Shown here in pieces: positions 1 to 52,599 of a stretch of DNA of 53,143 bases. A program made the translations under genes and the position numbers. How positions within the stretch are numbered: the stretch's first letter is position 1; every line of letters starts with the position of its first letter. Location: positions 1-53,143 of the forward strand of contig CAJOOC010000169.1 of assembly GCA_905236165.1 (NCBI GenBank), written 5' to 3'. The notes beneath the pieces are model-generated. The model saw nothing but the letters and a program-made list of their open reading frames with translations. It was not told the origin of the DNA and ran no database searches. This stretch comes from an uncultured Prevotella sp. GTDB lineage: Bacteria; Bacteroidota; Bacteroidia; Bacteroidales; Bacteroidaceae.

Positions 1-38
1 GTATTAAGTATGTGTAAAGTAAATCGCAGTGCGCAGCA

Positions 39-69
39 AAAAATTCGTGAAATTCGAGAAATTCGTGGT
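39..69. repeat. Half-copy of an ATTCGTG-type intergenic repeat
   Basis: AATTCGTGAAATTC followed by AAATTCGTGGT closely matches one arm of the large inverted repeat at 52466-52555. The rest of 1-121 holds no gene that I can support. Confidence 0.6.
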
Positions 70-121
70 AGAGAAAAGAATATGCGTACTTCAGAAACTT
101 GAATTGAAATAATAAAAAACA

Positions 122-179
122 ACACCCCGACCCTCAAGTGGGAAAGCCCCACCCCGACCCTCCCCAAGGGGAGGGAGAA
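122..179 (+). repeat. GC-rich intergenic module, one full and one partial copy
   Basis: The full copy starts AAAGCCCCACCCCGACCC and ends in the near-palindrome CCCTCCCCAAGGGGAGGG. A truncated copy (CACCCCGACCCTCAAG) precedes it. The same module occurs at 40081-40118 and 44491-44525, each time followed by a short tandem array and then a start codon. The opposite strand has four G-runs and could fold as a G-quadruplex; this is inference. Confidence 0.8.
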
Positions 180-182
180 TTT

Positions 183-214
183 GTTAATTCGTTAATTCGT
201 TAATTTGTTAATTT
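183..214 (+). repeat. Octamer tandem array (GTTAATTC/T x4) running into the rsmA start
   Basis: Four exact 8-base periods are visible: GTTAATTC twice, then GTTAATTT twice. The last unit ends inside the TTG start codon of rsmA. Related octamers lie just upstream of the ORFs at 9452 and 46330, in the same sense orientation. Confidence 0.9.
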
Positions 215-995
215 GAAATCCGTTCGTCCAAAGAAGAATCTGGGACAGCACTTCCTTGAAGACCTGACCATAGCGCGTCGCATCGCTGATACGGTGGATG
301 CGTGTCCCGACATACCCGTACTGGAGATTGGTCCAGGCATGGGCGTCATGACACAATACTTGTATCCCAAGGATCGCGAATTCAAGTGCGTGGAGATAGA
401 CAGGGAGTCCGTTGCCTACCTGCAGGAGGCCTACCCCAAGCTGCGTGGCAACATCATCGATGGCGACTTCCTCCGCATGGATCTCAACGAAGTCTTCGGC
501 GGTAAGCAGTTTGTGCTCACAGGCAACTACCCCTACGACATCTCATCGCAGATCTTCTTTAAGATGCTCGACAACAAAGACCTCATACCCTGCTGCACAG
601 GTATGATACAGCGCGAAGTGGCCCTGCGCATTGCTGCCTCACCGGGCAACAAGACCTACGGCATCCTCAGCGTGCTGATACAGGCGTGGTATAATACGGA
701 ATACCTCTTCACCGTTGACGAAAACGTGTTCAACCCACCCCCAAAGGTGAAGTCGGCGGTGATAAGGATGACACGCAACCAACGCACGGACCTGGGCTGC
801 GACTGGGCATTGTTCAAACGCATCGTCAAGGCCACCTTCAACCAGCGCCGCAAGATGCTGAGAGTATCGCTGAAGCAAATCGTCTCGACTGCCGATGCCT
901 TCGCCACCTCACCCGTAGACCTCACAAAACGTCCGGAGCAACTGACGCACGAAGAGTTTGTCACGCTGACAAACTATATCGGTACCCTGCTGTAG
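213..995 (+). CDS. rsmA: 16S rRNA (adenine(1518)-N6/adenine(1519)-N6)-dimethyltransferase RsmA/KsgA
   Basis: This SAM-dependent enzyme dimethylates two adjacent adenines in the 3' terminal hairpin of 16S rRNA, a late step in small-subunit maturation. The start RPKKNLGQHFLED is the family N-terminal signature, followed by the Rossmann motif LEIGPGMG (about residues 37-44), and the catalytic NYPYDIS (family N-[LIV]-P-[YF]) near residue 104. The 260 aa length is normal for the family. The start has to be TTG, because it is the only start codon placing Met two or three residues before the conserved RPKK, and the DNA upstream is a tandem octamer repeat with no ATG in frame. No clear RBS is visible. 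The gene stands alone on this strand and converges with the phosphoesterase. Confidence 0.95.
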   Translation: MKSVRPKKNLGQHFLEDLTIARRIADTVDACPDIPVLEIGPGMGVMTQYLYPKDREFKCVEIDRESVAYLQEAYPKLRGNIIDGDFLRMDLNEVFGGKQFVLTGNYPYDISSQIFFKMLDNKDLIPCCTGMIQREVALRIAASPGNKTYGILSVLIQAWYNTEYLFTVDENVFNPPPKVKSAVIRMTRNQRTDLGCDWALFKRIVKATFNQRRKMLRVSLKQIVSTADAFATSPVDLTKRPEQLTHEEFVTLTNYIGTLL

Positions 996-1032
996 AATCA
1001 CAATATTCCGAAACCCTGCTATAGAAACACAA

Positions 1033-1059
1033 CATGCCGGCACTCACTCATGCCGGCAC
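1033..1059. terminator. Inverted repeat between convergent genes
   Basis: ATGCCGGCA, then CTCACTCA, then TGCCGGCA form a perfect 8-base stem between rsmA and the convergent phosphoesterase gene. There is no strong T-run, so it is a weak or bidirectional terminator at best. Confidence 0.4.
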
Positions 1060-1089
1060 ATCTCCCCAATACGCATGCTGCAGGCATGC

Positions 1090-1578
1090 TCAGCCCAGCT
1101 CTATCACCTCAAGGTCCCTTATGTTGCTGCCGTCAATGACGAAGCGCACAAGAGTTCTCACTGCCTGCTGGCCACTAAGTCCCGCTGCACCTGGGTTGAT
1201 ATGCAGCAGTCCAAGGTGCTTGTCGTACATCACCTTCAGTATGTGAGAATGGCCCGAGATAAACAGCTGCGGTCTGTCGTGACAAAGGATGCGATAAGCC
1301 TTAGCGTCATACCGGCCAGGATACCCGCCAATATGTTTCATCACCACATTCACATCCTCACACCTGAAGCTCAGCACCTCAGGAAACTCCATCCTCACAA
1401 ACGAGCCGTCAATATTCCCGCTGACGCCTCTGAGGAATGCCACCTCCTTTAACCTGTCGGCCACGCGGATGTCACCGAAATCTCCGGCATGCCATATCTC
1501 GTCACACTCTGCGAAATACTTTGCAAAGCGCTCATCCCAGTGGTTATGTGTATCTGAAAGCAGTCCTATCTTCTTCAT
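1090..1578 (-). CDS. YfcE/MJ0936-family metallophosphoesterase
   Basis: A small calcineurin-like phosphoesterase of 162 aa, the usual single-domain size. Metal-binding motifs appear in order: LSDTHNH (DxH, residues 7-13), HAGDFGD (GD, about 30-36), GNID (GNxD, about 54-57), MKHIGG (single His), and GHSH (about 109-112). Members hydrolyse phosphodiesters in vitro; the physiological substrate is usually unknown. The gene follows the LMW-PTP gene on the minus strand after a 9-base gap, so the two are probably co-transcribed. Confidence 0.88.
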   Translation of the reverse strand: MKKIGLLSDTHNHWDERFAKYFAECDEIWHAGDFGDIRVADRLKEVAFLRGVSGNIDGSFVRMEFPEVLSFRCEDVNVVMKHIGGYPGRYDAKAYRILCHDRPQLFISGHSHILKVMYDKHLGLLHINPGAAGLSGQQAVRTLVRFVIDGSNIRDLEVIELG

Positions 1579-1587
1579 GATATAAAG

Positions 1588-2061
1588 TTATGGGTTATAG
1601 GTGGTAACCTCCAGCAACGCCTTGCAGCCATTCAGGCAGTCTCGCCAAGTGGAATCGAAGTCGCCCGTATACCAGGGATCGGCAACATCCTGGCCCTTGC
1701 GTCCCTCATATTCCATAAGCGAGTGTATCTTTCCCTCGGGGTCACCACCGCACATACGTTCCATATTGCGAATGTTATAACGGTCCATGCCTATCAGCAG
1801 GTCATAATGCTCATAGTCGCGGCGCGTCAGCTGGCGTGCATACTTACCCTCACAGCCTATACCATGCTCTGCAAGCTTTCTGCGTGCAGGGGGATAGACG
1901 GGATTGCCTATCTCCTCCGTGCTTGTGGCAGCAGAGGCTATTTCAAATTGCTCTGCCAAGCCCGCATCCTCTACCAGCTTCTTCATAATAAACTCCGCCA
2001 TAGGGCTGCGGCAGATGTTGCCGTGACAGACGAACAGAATCCTTGTCGTTTTATCTTTCAT
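1588..2061 (-). CDS. Low-molecular-weight protein-tyrosine phosphatase
   Basis: The P-loop CHGNICRS (the CX5R signature; nucleophile Cys near residue 13) comes straight after the first strand ILFV. The general-acid loop is DPWYTGDF near residue 128. Full family length (157 aa) with no insertions. In bacteria these cytosolic enzymes often dephosphorylate BY-kinases that control polysaccharide export, but no kinase is adjacent here. It lies upstream of the metallophosphoesterase in a short minus-strand operon. The decayed esterase ends 27 bases upstream. Confidence 0.93.
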   Translation of the reverse strand: MKDKTTRILFVCHGNICRSPMAEFIMKKLVEDAGLAEQFEIASAATSTEEIGNPVYPPARRKLAEHGIGCEGKYARQLTRRDYEHYDLLIGMDRYNIRNMERMCGGDPEGKIHSLMEYEGRKGQDVADPWYTGDFDSTWRDCLNGCKALLEVTTYNP

Positions 2062-2088
2062 TATGTTGTTTGATCAGTATGATTGCGT

Positions 2089-2643
2089 TTATTTGACAAG
2101 CTCCTTTTTTTCTCCCACGATATAAACTCCTTTCTGTGGTTTACTATCGCGTATGCCACTCAGCGTGATTAGAGGCTTGTTCAGGTCCTTGTCCAACTGC
2201 TGCATGGGTATGGTGGCAGTGGAAGTGTTTACGTCATTAATGGCAGTTGTCTCGTTATTGCTCCATACGGTAATCTTCGTAAATCTGGCGCGGTTGCCGT
2301 ACCGCCGTATGCGCACTTGATGGCATAGAAATCATCGTTTGATGCTTGGTCAATCCAATAGTTGGTTACATCGCAGAAAGCATAACGCTCGCCGTTGGCC
2401 ATACTGCGCGTACCGAAATACCTTCGTGGTAGGACGGCCACAGATGTTTGCCCAGCGCAGGTGCGTGTATGGACAGTAGGGCGACGTGCCAGTTTTCATG
2501 TATTCGGGAAGGTTCTGTACGAACTCGCGTCCGTCGGCATTCGACTGTCCTGCATAGAGAAATATGCTCTTCTTCACAGCCATTGCCGACGTGAGCAACA
2601 GGCTGCACATAATGGTCAAAAGGTTTTTCTTCGTCATTTCCAT
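2089..2643 (-). pseudogene. Remnant of a secreted SGNH/sialate O-acetylesterase-like protein
   Basis: Three minus-strand frames together read as one decayed protein. Frame 1 (from 2643) has a signal peptide and IFLYAGQSNADGREF, the block I GQSN motif of SASA/DUF303 carbohydrate esterases. Frame 2 (about 2441-2280) continues with FGTRSMANGERYAFCDV and a YGGT block. Frame 3 (to 2089) gives only the tail, ending GVYIVGEKKELVK, which resembles the C-terminal tail of Prevotella secreted proteins. At least one frameshift near 2430 and loss of the middle of the catalytic domain are needed to explain this. Intact relatives are several times longer. The surviving signal peptide and promoter-proximal part may still be transcribed. 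Confidence 0.7.
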
Positions 2644-2751
2644 TGCAAAAAAAGATTATCGGGTACCTCAGCCCTATTTAAGACTGCTACTAGTTTTAAG
2701 GCTCAAAGTTACAATTAAGTTTTGAGATACGCAAGAAAAATGGTTGTATAT

Positions 2752-2782
2752 TTTGCCATTTCGGGAATTATTGTTACTTTTG
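2752..2782 (+). promoter_or_regulatory. Bacteroidota-type promoter for the PfkB kinase
   Basis: TTTG (2752-2755), 19 bases, TACTTTTG (2775-2782). It lies inside the N-terminal extension of the longest ORF, which argues for the downstream ATG at 2842. Confidence 0.75.
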
Positions 2783-2841
2783 CACCAAATTATCTAACAC
2801 AATCTGGCGGGAATAACCACAATCCCGTTGCATATCGAAAC

Positions 2842-7149: not shown

Positions 7150-7944
7150 ATGATGAAGAAGTTTTTATTTGCAACACTGACAAGCATCGCCGTCGTAATG
7201 GGAGCCTCAGCCCAGAGCCACACCGACAGCCGGTATTACAATCCTCAGACGGGCAGGATGGAATATTCCCGCGGGCCGGTCAGGGAGCCACGTCCCGCTA
7301 TAGTGAGCAGTCCCTCAAGGCCTTACGGCAACTACGACCACAACCGCCCATACGCCTTCCCCGACACTTACGTAGGACTGCGCATCGGACCCGCATTCAC
7401 CCATGTCACCTCTGACGACCCCGCCCTCGACGGCGGTTCCTGGAAGACAGGCCTCAACGTGGGCGTGGCAGTGGGCAAGGCCCTCTCCTATCATGCCCCT
7501 GTATACCTTGAGACAGGGCTGTACTACACGGAGAAAGGCGGCAAGGGCTCACATTCATCAAACAAGGAATTCACCTACAGCCTGGACTATCTGGAACTGC
7601 CTCTGCTGCTAAAATATAAAGTCCCCGTAGACAGGGAGTTCAGCCTTGAGCCATACTTCGGCGGCTACTTCGCAGTAGGTGTGGGCGGCAAAATCAAGGA
7701 CTACGCTAACCGTGAGGCCTACAGTTCCTTCTCCTCCAACGCTTATGACAGCGGCACATTCCGGCGCTGCGACGCAGGACTGAAATTCGGCATCGGTGCG
7801 GCATACAAGCTGTCACCCCACCCCATGGCTGCCGAGGTATACATGGAGTTGGGCTACGACCTCGGACTGGCAAACGTATGCCACGACACCTTCAGCCAGG
7901 CAAAGAACGGAGCCCTGACGCTGAACTTCGGAATAAACATGTAA
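7150..7944 (+). CDS. Outer-membrane beta-barrel protein (PorT/OmpW-like fold)
   Basis: A signal peptide (MMKKFLFATLTSIAVVMGASAQS) is followed by a Pro/Arg/Tyr-rich linker (about residues 22-70), then an eight-stranded-type barrel from about residue 73. Strands show alternating aromatic and glycine patterns (YVGLRIGPAFTHV, YLETGLYYTEKGG, AAEVYMELGYDLGLANV). It ends LTLNFGINM, with a hydrophobic last strand as expected for Bam-dependent insertion. It belongs to the general Bacteroidota OMP beta-barrel class; the role is unknown. It has its own promoter and a shared terminator downstream. Confidence 0.8.
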   Translation: MMKKFLFATLTSIAVVMGASAQSHTDSRYYNPQTGRMEYSRGPVREPRPAIVSSPSRPYGNYDHNRPYAFPDTYVGLRIGPAFTHVTSDDPALDGGSWKTGLNVGVAVGKALSYHAPVYLETGLYYTEKGGKGSHSSNKEFTYSLDYLELPLLLKYKVPVDREFSLEPYFGGYFAVGVGGKIKDYANREAYSSFSSNAYDSGTFRRCDAGLKFGIGAAYKLSPHPMAAEVYMELGYDLGLANVCHDTFSQAKNGALTLNFGINM

Positions 7945-8002
7945 AAGGAACCACGGAATGGCGTTATGACGGCATGATAAACGCTATAACGCAACAACTA
8001 AG

Positions 8003-8042
8003 AAAAAGACCCCGCAAGCATAAAACTTACGAGGTCTTTTAT
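8003..8042. terminator. Bidirectional terminator
   Basis: AAAAAGACC and GGTCTTTT flank a partly paired middle, giving A-tract and T-tract on both sides. It separates the OMP gene from the convergent tRNA-Phe. Confidence 0.75.
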
Positions 8043-8048
8043 TTAACG

Positions 8049-8121
8049 TGGTGCCAACGGGAATCGAACCAGTGACACAAGGATTTTCAGTCCTTTGCTC
8101 TACCAACTGAGCTATGGCACC
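8049..8121 (-). tRNA. tRNA-Phe (anticodon GAA)
   Basis: On the minus strand the acceptor GGTGCCA/TGGCACC is perfect, with discriminator A73 and no encoded CCA. The D arm is GCTCAGTTGGTAGAGC. The anticodon stem-loop is AAGGA-CTGAAAA-TCCTT. The T loop TTCGATT is standard, with one mismatch in the T stem. Confidence 0.95.
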
Positions 8122-8191
8122 AAGCGCAAAACAGGTCACTAACACTGCCCTTTACCACCCCTGATAAGTGCCTGTTCCCTGTTTGCGGGTG

Positions 8192-47265: not shown

Positions 47266-47402
47266 TTATATATAAGTACCATTTTCCATGTACAATGCAC
47301 CATTTTCATTTGCACATTATACGCAATTTCGCTACAAAGTTACAACATTTTGAGGCCGAAAGCAACTATTTAACGTGAATTAACACTAAACTGCGCCCTT
47401 TT

Positions 47403-47435
47403 CCTTTGTTGTGCAAAGGATTTTGTGTACCTTTG
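47403..47435 (+). promoter_or_regulatory. Promoter of the M6 protease with an overlapping inverted repeat
   Basis: TTTG (47405-47408), 19 bases, TACCTTTG (47428-47435). CCTTTG-TTGTG-CAAAGG (47403-47419) is a perfect 6-base inverted repeat over the -33 box and could be an operator. The start codon is only 7 bases after the -7 element, so the mRNA would be nearly leaderless. Confidence 0.7.
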
Positions 47436-47442
47436 CCGCTAT

Positions 47443-49173
47443 ATGAAACAAATAGCCATACTCATCCTATCACTATTCGTTGCCTTAGGAGCACATGCTG
47501 CCAAGGCCAACGCACCCAGTTTCAAGGCCGTCCTCACCGATGGCCGCACCGTCACGCTGACCCTCGTGGGCGACGAGCACCTCAACTACTACGTCACCGC
47601 CGAGGGCGAGATAGTGCTCTATGCCAATGACAGATACCACGCCGCCACGAAGGCCGAGCAGGACAGCCTCCAGGCCGTCCTCACACGCCTGGCAGCACAG
47701 AGCATGGAGACGATGAGCCGCGCCGGCGAGCGCGACGTCAACGCTGTGAGCCACCTCGACGTGTCGAATGCCACGCCACATCTGGGCACGCCGCGCATAC
47801 CCGTCATCCTCGTACAGTTCACCGACAGCGTCTTCCGTTATTCACGCGACGATATCGACAGCCTCCTCAACGGCAAGCAATACCAGATAAACGACCAATA
47901 CCGCGGCTACGGCTCTGCACGGCAGTTCTTCATAGACTGCTCCAACGGCAAGTTCCAGCCGCAGTTCGACGTTTACGGACCCTACACCCTGCCCAACACC
48001 AGCAAATACTACGGTGCCGGCAACGCATGGAACGAGCGAGCCACCACGGCTGTGAGAGATGCCCTGAAACTCGCCAACCCCGACATCGACTTCCGCCAGT
48101 ACGACTACAACAATAACAGCACCATCGATGGCGTATGCGTCATCTATGCAGGCTGGAACGGCAACACCTCCGGCAACAGCGACGATATCTGGCCGCAGTC
48201 AGGCGACAATCAGATGGGCACCTACGACGGCTTCGACATCAACCGCTGGCTCATCTGCGGAGAGCTACTCTACGGGCCGGAGTTCCGCAACGACAAAGGG
48301 GAGTACTGCCTCACAGGCATCGGAGTCTTCGTACACGAGTTCTCCCACATGATGGGACTGCCCGACTTCTACCCCACCTCCATCAGCAACACCGACTATG
48401 CCAAGCTCGACAACCAGTCGATGGAAGACTGGGACATCATGGACAACGGAGAGAACCAGCGTCTGGGCCTCTATCCGCAACCCTTCTCAGCATGGGAGCA
48501 GGAATACCTCGCATGGGCCGACGAGCTGGAGGTGCTGAGCGAACCCGCCGACGTACATCTCATACCCCTTATGCATGGCGGCAAAGGCCTTAAGATAATG
48601 AACGACAACGACACCTCAGGCAAGGAATTCTGGGTGCTCGAAGCCCTCCCCAACACCAAGGACAGCGGCTGGTACCGCTGGACACGCGGCGACGGTATGC
48701 TCATAACGCACATACTCTTCAACAAGACCAACTTCTCGGGTCTTAACCACCCCAACAACACCGTAGGCAAGCCCGGCATCACCATCATCCCCGCAGACGG
48801 CTGGCTGCCATCCTCCTATCGCGTGAAGACCGATATCACGGAGAGTTACGGCGATTACCTTACCTCTTCCGACTATTTCAAGCATCTGGCAGGCGACACC
48901 TATCCCGGCAGTCAGATGGTGACGAGCTTCAACAACTACAAGGCCTACACCGGCACCGTCGACAAGCCCATCACCGAGATAGAGCGCATCATGCCCGGCC
49001 ACTCAGTGAAGTTCAAGTTTATGGGCGGCACGTATGTGGGCATTGATGCCATAAAAGATGCAAAAAACACCGATTCCATCGCGAAAAAAGCGCATAAAGC
49101 CCTCCGCAACGGCCAACTCATAATCATCAACGGCACTAACGCCTTTACACCCGCAGGAGCATTACTGAAATAA
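47443..49173 (+). CDS. Secreted M6-family metalloprotease
   Basis: A signal peptide (MKQIAILILSLFVALGAHA) and an N-terminal region (about 25-110) precede the peptidase domain. The zinc motif is HEFSHMMGLPD (about residues 298-308; HExxHxxGxxD), the M6 immune-inhibitor-A type. The following region includes MEDWDIMDNGE, the Met-turn neighbourhood. The end RNGQLIIINGTNAFTPAGALLK resembles the C-terminal tail of secreted Prevotella proteins. 576 aa from the ATG at 47443; the track start at 47425 overlaps the promoter. The regulator gene follows after 23 bases. Confidence 0.9.
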   Translation: MKQIAILILSLFVALGAHAAKANAPSFKAVLTDGRTVTLTLVGDEHLNYYVTAEGEIVLYANDRYHAATKAEQDSLQAVLTRLAAQSMETMSRAGERDVNAVSHLDVSNATPHLGTPRIPVILVQFTDSVFRYSRDDIDSLLNGKQYQINDQYRGYGSARQFFIDCSNGKFQPQFDVYGPYTLPNTSKYYGAGNAWNERATTAVRDALKLANPDIDFRQYDYNNNSTIDGVCVIYAGWNGNTSGNSDDIWPQSGDNQMGTYDGFDINRWLICGELLYGPEFRNDKGEYCLTGIGVFVHEFSHMMGLPDFYPTSISNTDYAKLDNQSMEDWDIMDNGENQRLGLYPQPFSAWEQEYLAWADELEVLSEPADVHLIPLMHGGKGLKIMNDNDTSGKEFWVLEALPNTKDSGWYRWTRGDGMLITHILFNKTNFSGLNHPNNTVGKPGITIIPADGWLPSSYRVKTDITESYGDYLTSSDYFKHLAGDTYPGSQMVTSFNNYKAYTGTVDKPITEIERIMPGHSVKFKFMGGTYVGIDAIKDAKNTDSIAKKAHKALRNGQLIIINGTNAFTPAGALLK

Positions 49174-49196: not shown

Positions 49197-50912
49197 ATGA
49201 AATACAACAACCACACAGAAAGAGCCGGATGCCTTGCATTGGTATTCCGGCTTATTGTGTTTCTCTTCACCATGCAGGCAGGCACTGCAGAAGGAGCAGA
49301 GAAGTCGGAAACAATTTCTGGATGTCCCAGTGCAGAGTTGAAGGTGACGGCACTGCCTCCCCTTCACGTGCCCCGCATAGGGCATGCCGTCATGTGCATA
49401 GGCGACGAGGTAGTGGCCTTCGGAGGCCACACGTCCGGTTTCGTCCCAACACCGACGGCAGAATACTACAGCAACGGCGAATGGCACCTGATGCAGATGG
49501 CTTATCCTCATGACCAGGGAGCCGCAGCCCTCACAGGCTCGGGCAAGGTGGTAATCTTCGGAGGGCACGAGAAAGAGCTGGGCATAGGGCAGACCTTCAC
49601 TGTGGAGCTATACGACCCTGTGGAGCATACCTTTACGGGCTATGGCTGCCTTGACAAAAAACGGTGCTTCGCCAAAGCACTTCCCATGAAAGACGGCAAC
49701 ATTATCGTCACTGGCAGCTGGTATGCCGAAGACGGCATAGAATGTTTTGACGGCAGCAGGCAGAACTTATTCGTCAAAGCTGTGGCGCAGCAACGTTCCA
49801 TTCCCTACATTCTGCGCACCTCCCGCAATAATGCCATCTTCTTCAGCGACAGAGACATACATGCCGACCTTCACGACACCATACTGATAGACCGCCTGCA
49901 CGGCGAGCCATTCACCGCACCTCTGTTCGAGGAGTGGCGTCCGTTCTACAACCATATAGGCCACGACAACAGCCAGTGCTTCGCAGGAGACGAGAAGGAA
50001 GGAAAGTATGTCAATCTGCTTCAGGTGATGCAGGGCGACAGCATCATGGCAATTGCCCGCGTGGATGGCGAGGACATTTCGCTGCTGCCCACCACGTGCC
50101 CTCTGCCAATGCGCAGCACGTTGGGACGGATAATGTGGTTCTCATACATCCTCGGCAACCGCAGCATAGGCAGGGCCTACATAGTGGGATATGGCGAGAA
50201 CAGCAACGACCGTCGTTACTACGTGGCCTGCATAGACTACAACAAGATTCCCTCCCCCGTCACCTTATTATATAGTGAGCCTCAGGACACTATATGCATC
50301 TATCAGCCTGTGCTGACACGAAACGGCGACCTCCTCATTGCCGGGGGCACGAAACCGGGCCACGTAAACAATTTCGAAGCCACCCGCTTGGCCTTCCTGC
50401 TACACACGGGCACCGAGGCAGAGGCCTCGCATGCTGCCCATACATGGCTGTGGGCCTGTTTACTGGCCTTCGTGCTTCTCGCCTCAGGCATCGTAGCCGT
50501 CCTGCTGCTCAAGCGCAAGAAGAGACAGCAGCACGCCGGGGGAGACGCAGCCGACACCGTATCAGGGAGAGACGAGGAACTTATGCAGCAACTGCTACGC
50601 CTGATGGAGGAGAAAAAGCCCTATCTCAACAGCAACCTGCGAGTGGAGGACGTAGCCGACCTGCTCGGCACCAACCGCACATACGTGTCCAACTGCATAA
50701 AGAACATTCGCGGCTGTCAGTTCATACAGTTCGTCAACGCCTACCGCATAGAGCACGCCAAGCAGCTGCTCAGGCAGAACAGGGACATAAAGACATCTTA
50801 TGTATGGACCGCATCGGGCTTCTCCTCCGAAGCCTCCTTCTTCCGTAATTTCAAGGAAACAACCGGAATGACACCCAAAGAATGGCTAAACGCCTATCAA
50901 GAGCCCTCATAA
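49197..50912 (+). CDS. Membrane-bound one-component regulator: kelch-like propeller, TM, AraC HTH
   Basis: An N-terminal signal or anchor segment (about 13-35), then about 370 residues of kelch-like beta-propeller blades in the periplasm (HAVMCIGDEVVAFGGHTSG, GSGKVVIFGGHEKEL, DGNIIVTGSWYAED, NGDLLIAGGT). One TM helix at about 416-438 (TWLWACLLAFVLLASGIVAVLLL), a basic stop-transfer (KRKKRQQ), and an AraC-type DNA-binding domain at about 470-568 (LRVEDVADLLGTNRTYVSNCIKN, SGFSSEASFFRNFKETTGMTPKEW). There is no histidine kinase or receiver, so it is not a hybrid two-component protein. It likely controls nearby genes in response to a periplasmic ligand; target unknown. Confidence 0.88.
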   Translation: MKYNNHTERAGCLALVFRLIVFLFTMQAGTAEGAEKSETISGCPSAELKVTALPPLHVPRIGHAVMCIGDEVVAFGGHTSGFVPTPTAEYYSNGEWHLMQMAYPHDQGAAALTGSGKVVIFGGHEKELGIGQTFTVELYDPVEHTFTGYGCLDKKRCFAKALPMKDGNIIVTGSWYAEDGIECFDGSRQNLFVKAVAQQRSIPYILRTSRNNAIFFSDRDIHADLHDTILIDRLHGEPFTAPLFEEWRPFYNHIGHDNSQCFAGDEKEGKYVNLLQVMQGDSIMAIARVDGEDISLLPTTCPLPMRSTLGRIMWFSYILGNRSIGRAYIVGYGENSNDRRYYVACIDYNKIPSPVTLLYSEPQDTICIYQPVLTRNGDLLIAGGTKPGHVNNFEATRLAFLLHTGTEAEASHAAHTWLWACLLAFVLLASGIVAVLLLKRKKRQQHAGGDAADTVSGRDEELMQQLLRLMEEKKPYLNSNLRVEDVADLLGTNRTYVSNCIKNIRGCQFIQFVNAYRIEHAKQLLRQNRDIKTSYVWTASGFSSEASFFRNFKETTGMTPKEWLNAYQEPS

Positions 50913-50940: not shown

Positions 50941-51003
50941 AAAGAAAAGACTATCAAAATCACAAAATGGAGTAGAATTGTGATTTTGATAGTCTTTTTT
51001 TTA
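50941..51003 (+). terminator. Long-stem intrinsic terminator
   Basis: AAAGACTATCAAAATCACAA pairs with TTGTGATTTTGATAGTCTTT, followed by TTTTT. A perfect stem of about 20 bases, after the regulator. Confidence 0.92.
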
Positions 51004-51014
51004 TCTATATTTCG

Positions 51015-51022
51015 TACCTTTG
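51015..51022 (+). promoter_or_regulatory. -7 element for the lipoprotein pair
   Basis: TACCTTTG, shortly after the terminator T-run. Downstream, ACAGATAC-NN-AAAACAACAT occurs twice (about 51027 and 51055) in the 5' UTR. Confidence 0.65.
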
Positions 51023-51122
51023 CTCACAGATACTTAAAACAACATTCTTTGCTAACAGATACCGAAAACAACATATCTACTATATTTATAACCATATTAA
51101 TAACCATAAAAAAACAAAGAGT

Positions 51123-51728
51123 ATGAAAAAGACAAATTTCTGGAGTCTGATGACTCTCTTCCTGTGCGCTATCTGCGCAACAACACTTACCGCCTGCGGC
51201 GATGACGACGATGATAACGGCGGAGGCGGCGGCAGTGACAACCGTATCAATTCTGTTTTCACAAGCAAAAACCTCAACACGATGTCACGCTTTATGCCCA
51301 TACATAGGGGTACAACCCCTCCAGCGCTTGAGGGAACATATAAGGTGAGCCCAGACATCAAGATAGTGGAAGCTTGGGACGACTATGTTGATGAAGATAA
51401 AGTACAGATATATAGCGCATACTATTGGAGATTTTACGATTTTGACGCAGAAAACAGAACTGTGAGGGTTGCGAGTGGAGAAACACTAAGTGAAGTTGCC
51501 TCAAAAACTGGAGCTGTAAGTTACATCAGCGGTTCTGGCAACAACTTTACAGTATGTCGGAATCTTGACACCAGGAATTATGCTGTATCTGGCACGCTGA
51601 CTTCTTCAGGTATCTCTAATTTCTTCTTCGCATGCGAAGTGACTGACGAAGATTACGGTGACGGCTGGGATGTAGGTGACTTATGGATAAGCAAAGACGG
51701 GGACGGAATGGCAGAAAAAGTAGAATAG
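51123..51728 (+). CDS. Surface lipoprotein, unknown function (paralogue A)
   Basis: Signal peptide and lipobox LTAC (Cys near 25) are followed by GDDDDDNGGGGG. An acidic run just after the Cys is the surface-export signal known in Bacteroidota lipoproteins, so I expect it on the outside of the outer membrane. The mature domain (about 40-200) is strand-rich with no motif I can name. Shared with the next gene: MPIHRGTTPPALEG, GNNFTV, TSSGISN and the ending with DGM. It is lower in G+C by eye than its neighbours. Confidence 0.82.
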   Translation: MKKTNFWSLMTLFLCAICATTLTACGDDDDDNGGGGGSDNRINSVFTSKNLNTMSRFMPIHRGTTPPALEGTYKVSPDIKIVEAWDDYVDEDKVQIYSAYYWRFYDFDAENRTVRVASGETLSEVASKTGAVSYISGSGNNFTVCRNLDTRNYAVSGTLTSSGISNFFFACEVTDEDYGDGWDVGDLWISKDGDGMAEKVE

Positions 51729-52451: not shown

Positions 52452-52465
52452 CACTTGTTTATAAC

Positions 52466-52555
52466 GACCACGAATTACACTAATTTCACGAATTAATTCA
52501 TTTCTAACACGTTATGTTGCACAGCCAATTCGTGTAATTAGTGCAATTCGTGGTC
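52466..52555. repeat. Large inverted repeat (ACGAATT type)
   Basis: GACCACGAATTACACTAATT plus TCACGAATT on one side and AATTCGTGTAATTAGTGCAA plus TTCGTGGTC on the other match at 27 of 29 positions. The loop is 32 bases. Similar words occur at 39-69. Confidence 0.88.
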
Positions 52556-52599
52556 GTGACCAGTGAAATTCGCGGCCGTATCCATGTCAATTTTGTCCT

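Follow-up and report, generated by a model that had tools for sequence, protein, structure and literature searches.

An uncultured Prevotella sp. (GenBank assembly GCA_905236165.1, contig CAJOOC010000169.1) encodes a 571-aa membrane protein that is most likely an AraC-class transmembrane transcription regulator with a kelch sensor. On the account that we consider likely, this protein would be a one-component regulator whose kelch domain senses the envelope and whose membrane-held AraC domain binds an operator made of TGNNAGTC half-sites, activating adjacent genes for exported proteins. The DNA analyzed, referred to here as the window, comprises positions 1 to 53,143 of the forward strand of this contig, and its relevant features are collected in Table 1.

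Table 1. Features of the window that bear on the regulator, its neighbor and its predicted targets
Feature	Position	Strand	Details and basis
M6 promoter	47403..47435	+	Palindrome over TTTG -33 box; TACCTTTG -7 box at 47428-47435; without operator half-site
M6-family secreted metalloprotease	47443..49173	+	HEFSH at residue 298; TIGR03296 8.3e-47
Kelch-TM-AraC transmembrane regulator gene	49197..50912	+	571 aa; ORF, Kelch_1 + HTH_18
Signal peptide-like N-terminal helix	49197..49289	+	Residues 1-31; hydrophobic in 34/34 relatives; model helix 6-30
Kelch beta-propeller sensor, periplasmic (predicted)	49317..50420	+	Residues 41-408; AlphaFold2 pTM 0.85, Foldseek
Single TM helix, then basic residues	50442..50519	+	Residues 416-441; model; hydropathy 2.89
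AraC-type double HTH, cytoplasmic (predicted)	50562..50894	+	Residues 456-566; HTH_18, model helices
25-bp stem-loop with terminal T8	50941..51002	+	Repeat search; fold z-score -7.6
Inverted half-site GACTATCA	50949..50956	-	Inverted copy of operator
Degenerate middle half-site TGGAGT, one base short	50968..50973	+	
Promoter-proximal half-site TGATAGTC	50987..50994	+	Exactly 28 bp before -7 box
-7 box TACCTTTG of lipoprotein promoter	51015..51022	+	TTTG absent at -33; half-site end occupies the position
Predicted target 1, DDDDD lipoprotein, 201 aa	51123..51728	+	Lipobox TACGDDDDD; first gene past operator
Predicted target 2, lipoprotein paralogue, 227 aa	51768..52451	+	32% identity to target 1

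A sequence-only reading of this DNA had proposed that a kelch propeller is joined through one TM helix to an AraC domain in a protein that lacks any kinase, and had named domain search and structure prediction as the means of checking it. Both were carried out, and Pfam, AlphaFold2, Foldseek and hydropathy analysis all bear the proposal out, with the propeller and the TM helix each found. The Pfam scan detected Kelch_1 (1.7e-8, 34.2 bits against a cut-off of 20.1) and a C-terminal HTH_18 domain (PF12833, residues 487-565; 3.9e-16, 59.6 bits against a cut-off of 33.6), and no HisKA, HATPase_c or Response_reg domain at E values up to 1. An AlphaFold2 model based on an alignment of ten relatives (mean pLDDT, 77.7) consisted of a propeller, one long helix at residues 416-441 and AraC helices at residues 456-566. 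When modelled alone, the sensor likewise formed a propeller (pLDDT, 81.9; pTM, 0.85), and its top Foldseek matches in the PDB were the kelch domains of LZTR1, KEAP1 and KLHDC10 (E values of 3e-10 and weaker; TM-scores on the query of 0.42-0.55); for galactose oxidase, the TM-score on the query was 0.61. In 34/34 aligned members, hydropathy analysis found exactly one strong hydrophobic helix between the sensor and the HTH, with basic residues on the HTH side.

The regulator therefore has the makeup of a non-hybrid transmembrane transcription regulator, namely, one polypeptide that combines a DNA-binding domain with one or more TM helices and has no receiver, HATPase_c or HisKA domain. Its C-terminal double HTH is that of the AraC family, its kelch repeats form the beta-propeller by which kelch propeller proteins are defined, and the HisKA, HATPase and receiver domains that hybrid two-component proteins carry in one chain are missing. 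We infer that the periplasmic propeller senses an envelope signal, that the protein dimerizes, that it is the binder of the operator described below and that it activates rather than represses; the single TM helix would couple the propeller to the DNA-binding domain with no kinase in between, and the protein would have to act on DNA from the membrane. In a variant of this explanation that is compatible with its operator part, proteolysis would free the AraC domain from the membrane. Proteolytic release is known in some other membrane regulators, and the model places a low-confidence linker (residues 438-455) between the TM helix and the HTH; however, no conserved motif was apparent by eye in this linker among the 34 aligned members, and we regard release as unlikely. 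We favor an AraC domain that would bind its half-sites while still in the inner membrane.

To place the regulator within a family, we counted its relatives in three genome samples. By our own count at an E value below 1e-80, they are present in 23/60 same-genus genomes, including the window's own genome; a tally of 28 at E < 1e-20 also takes in HTH-only and weaker matches. Relatives were found in 10/101 genomes of a family sample and in 2/198 genomes of an order sample, the own genome being included in both counts. The full-length architecture is kept in over one third of the sampled same-genus genomes and is rarer across the wider family. Apart from the window protein, the 34 aligned members comprise 33 proteins with 37-56% identity to it, and the own genome holds one paralogue on a different contig. 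The named relatives come from Prevotella and Prevotellaceae MAGs, several of them of rumen origin, and the host is a Prevotella-type bacterium of the gut or rumen.

The output domain attached to the kelch sensor is AraC in every full-length relative aligned. In a tree of HTH domains, that of the regulator clusters with those of multi-pass membrane AraC proteins and is separated from the HTHs of own-genome hybrid kinases (100/100 support), the latter having been assigned by size and HTH match. On this evidence, we do not favor descent of the regulator from a hybrid two-component protein by loss of its kinase.

The genes that follow the regulator share two properties. The next gene was co-directional with the regulator in 45/48 loci, compared with 33/48 for the upstream gene (P = 0.003), and it was predicted to encode an exported protein in 35/48 loci, against 95/282 background genes (P = 7e-7), export being predicted with a simple signal-peptide rule of our own. 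Ten downstream proteins were scanned for domains. Several are BspA-type LRR proteins, one C10 peptidase-LRR protein among them, and one is a BACON protein, while the rest gave marginal matches or none; the C10 peptidase-LRR protein also matches Por_Secre_tail, the type IX sorting tail, though weakly and under the Pfam cut-off. Other than the regulator gene, no constant neighbor was seen in the surveyed loci. At five of them (L054, L056, L068, L072 and L079), the regulator gene lies 5-97 nt after an argC-like gene, with differing genes behind it, and this cassette position recurs.

Alignment of the regulator-downstream gaps on their TAnnTTTG -7 box revealed that the gap often holds a conserved element, consisting of TGNNAGTC direct repeats 21 bp apart and, usually, an inverted copy. 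In the clearest operator, at L061, GACTAACA is followed by TTGTTAGTC, 12 nt, TTGTTAGTC, 19 nt and TATCTTTG. Pairs of TGNNAGT half-sites spaced 20-22 bp apart occurred in 22/50 downstream gaps, whereas shuffled sequences averaged 0.01 loci; the spacing was 21 bp in 19 cases and 20 bp in two, with each other listed spacing occurring once. Such pairs were present in 9/360 other upstream regions, four of the nine lying upstream of the regulator itself, and the strict pair is missing from more than half of the loci. A proximal TGNNAGY half-site was located 27-28 bp before TAnnTTTG in 26/40 gaps that have the box, against 9/117 controls (P = 2e-12). In 21/26 of these operators, an inverted copy of the half-site lies upstream and builds a hairpin together with the copy that follows, and on our own reading, the regulator stop codon apparently falls inside this hairpin in several loci, as GAC-TAA-CA or GAC-TGA-CA.

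Promoters in Bacteroides carry TTTG at the -33 position. The proximal half-site occupies this position, which suggests that the regulator is an activator; a half-site that replaces the -33 box would most likely mean that transcription is switched on by the bound protein. The predicted binding site of the AraC domain is the 21-bp direct repeat together with its inverted upstream copy, and the repeats precede the presumed targets. For the AraC family, direct-repeat half-sites separated by roughly two helical turns are the expected kind of binding site. The direct repeats predicted for the AraC-type hybrid regulators of Bacteroides likewise have an average spacing of 21 bp (PMC3878776).

A different possibility is that the repeats are an RNA element only, acting as terminators or attenuators of the regulator genes, with conserved stems and no bound protein. 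In its favor, the inverted copy pairs with the direct copy next to it in a hairpin that is followed by T-rich sequence, the stems show compensating changes, and the window itself contains a 25-bp terminator-like hairpin. Two observations nevertheless make an RNA function alone rather improbable. Most loci have the proximal copy beyond the hairpin, with a constant distance of 27-28 bp to the -7 box and of 21 bp to the middle copy, and the pair also occurs in front of regulator genes and, elsewhere, in front of genes for exported proteins.

We then searched whole genomes with a fixed pattern of two half-sites and a -7 box. The pattern was found in 18/23 same-genus genomes with the regulator and in 2/37 without it (P = 5e-9), a link that is not fully independent because many of the matches are the discovery loci; a reversed control pattern occurred twice in the 60 genomes. 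Several new matches lie ahead of exported-protein genes where a neighboring regulator gene was not seen (for example, at L097, L105, L108, L118 and L119), and four matches lie 2-10 nt upstream of called regulator ORF starts, pointing to autoregulation. The link was weaker in the family-level sample, with the operator in 4/9 regulator genomes and 4/91 others (P = 0.002), and matches outside the regulator genomes were at chance level there. With a relaxed pattern of one half-site, the own genome gave four matches: the window site, two in the surroundings of the paralogue, and a fourth on contig C58, ahead of a gene for a signal-peptide protein. The C58 site may be due to chance, since the reversed control also has two own-genome matches. 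Beside the paralogue, on contig C42 of the same genome (locus L013, positions 7782-8171), a 129-aa gene encodes an AraC HTH alone and has an intact operator in front; its product is possibly a truncated copy or a soluble competitor.

These surveys also bear on whether a different conserved regulator binds the operator while the kelch-AraC protein only travels along with it. A point in favor of such a passenger is that HTH similarity and the two bases that vary in the half-site were uncorrelated (Mantel rho, 0.08; P = 0.21). Against this, the operator follows the presence of the kelch-AraC gene across the same-genus genomes, the 21-bp direct repeat is an AraC-type geometry (PMC3878776), and no other gene is a constant neighbor, and we give a separate binder little credence. 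For the kelch-AraC protein as binder, the targets would be the adjacent exported-protein genes (in the window, the lipoprotein genes at 51123 and 51768), sometimes exported-protein genes elsewhere and, at certain loci, the regulator gene itself.

The window's copy of the operator, which the sequence-only reading had missed, spans positions 50949-50994, ahead of the 51015 promoter. Its proximal and inverted half-sites are intact, while the middle half-site is degenerate, so that the strict pair pattern finds no match in the window. The 28-bp distance from half-site to -7 box recurs in L013, L070 and L093, which carry the same half-site, TGATAGTC. Both intact half-sites sit in the arms of the 25-bp stem-loop, which is probably the intrinsic terminator of the regulator mRNA. 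The earlier suggestion that the 51015 promoter is a candidate target gains support from this arrangement, in which the operator precedes the lipoprotein genes. The CGDDDDD start of these predicted lipoproteins appears similar to a lipoprotein export signal described in Bacteroidetes (PMC5080379). A tandem direct repeat of 28 nt, CTTTGCTCACAGATACTTAAAACAACAT, begins inside the -7 box (51018-51074; 89% identity between the copies, spacing of 29) and thus duplicates a segment of the promoter and 5' UTR.

With one conserved sensor and differing targets, the loci probably respond to a shared envelope signal rather than to signals tailored to individual targets. More tentatively, the loci may be swappable cassettes, in which a constant kelch sensor reads one envelope state and drives a different dedicated exported protein at each locus, from operators placed within the regulator's own terminator and stop codon. 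The envelope state might, for example, be a peptide end or glycan freed during surface-protein export, a suggestion that we make with the same reserve.

The upstream neighbor of the regulator is, as had been noted, an M6-family protease whose gene ends 23 bases before that of the regulator. The two genes are probably cotranscribed, and given a gap of only 23 nt, the regulator in the window is probably transcribed from the M6 promoter. The inverted repeat noted on the -33 box of that promoter is real (CCTTTG-N5-CAAAGG, 17 bp, positions 47403-47419) and covers TTTG at 47405-47408, 19 nt before TACCTTTG at 47428, but its proposed role as an operator of the regulator did not hold: the palindrome does not match the family-wide motif, and no TGNNAGY half-site is present in the M6 promoter region (47266-47450). 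Allowing one mismatch, a palindrome of this type was present in 13/100 shuffles of the window, which makes it weak on its own. The pairing of protease and regulator, for which conservation had been put forward as a check, proved not to be conserved. By tblastn, the regulator was absent from 14/14 related M6 loci with 1.5-kb flanks, and an M6 homologue was found in 1/55 fetched regulator loci (L067), 4.3 kb away and on the opposite strand; a first survey had detected none near other regulator genes. M6 homologues are widespread in the genus (41/60 genomes). Control of the M6 operon through the palindrome is hence very unlikely, despite the closeness of the two genes, their probable cotranscription and the position of the palindrome over the -33 box.

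In the M6 promoter (window positions 47428-47445), 7 nt separate the end of the -7 box from the ATG. Taken with the operator-bearing promoters of four regulator genes, which end 2-10 nt ahead of the called starts, this suggests that mRNAs in this group are leaderless or almost so.

Membrane-bound one-component regulators (TTRs) are abundant in Bacteroidia (survey in PMC10269533). Like TTRs such as ToxR and TcpP (PMC10269533), the window protein unites an extracytoplasmic sensor, a TM helix and a cytoplasmic DNA-binding domain in one polypeptide with no kinase or receiver, but its sensor is a kelch propeller and its C-terminal head is of the AraC type; the main text of that survey contains none of the words kelch, propeller and AraC. 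With the hybrid two-component systems (HTCS) of Bacteroides, it shares a periplasmic sensor, an AraC-type HTH, 21-bp direct-repeat operators and control of adjacent genes (PMC3878776), the last two as predicted here. Unlike them, it lacks HisKA, HATPase and receiver domains, and its HTH belongs to a clade apart from the own-genome HTCS-sized proteins; whereas HTCS control sugar-utilization genes, its presumed targets are exported proteins of many kinds. SusR-like regulators of the same phylum are also membrane proteins with a periplasmic sensor, a cytoplasmic DNA-binding domain and no kinase (PMC3878776). SusR, however, has a DNA-binding domain that is not significantly similar to that of any other known regulator, and the sites predicted for it are spaced by 67 or 77 bp (PMC3878776), in contrast to the AraC HTH and 21-bp spacing of the window regulator, which thus falls outside the SusR-like group.

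The closest HTHs outside the family (39-46% identity) belong to multi-pass membrane AraC proteins of Prevotella relatives (L045 and L047-L049), which likewise have no kinase-sized region; their N-terminal half resembles several TM helices and has no propeller. The regulator HTH also matches the YSIRK-adjacent surface antigen regulators (TIGR04094; 1.8e-10), AraC-type proteins named for their place beside surface-antigen genes, but the match covers the HTH only and, at 40 of 200 bits, is far under the family cut-off. The papers searched gave no description of the kelch-AraC combination, its operator or its exported targets. As membrane one-component regulators are known and this combination was not found described, we regard the protein as a variant within a known class. 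If our account is true, signals would be able to pass from the periplasm to a promoter without a kinase, in a phylum whose propeller sensing is credited to hybrid two-component proteins. The defined operator and predicted targets make the question of how a membrane-held AraC protein reaches DNA directly testable, and they would offer a handle on how Prevotella chooses its surface proteins, among them adhesin-like LRR proteins and lipoproteins.

The single clear distant homologue of the kelch sensor is a secreted protein of more than 900 aa with a dockerin-like end (L083, positions 2-2809, minus strand; 27% identity), and a protein of this type is a possible source of the sensor domain. By eye, two further repeats were seen in the window. 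An imperfect inverted repeat lies past the second lipoprotein gene, at 52455-52560 (ACGACCACGAATTACACTAATT... / ...AATTAGTGCAATTCGTGGTCGT). At the contig end (52980-53143), AAAAAGTTCCTCTTTTATTTTGTATTGTGCTCACTTAATCGTACCTTTG occurs twice in nearly identical form, both times with a -7-like TACCTTTG, and the contig may break inside a repeat at this point.
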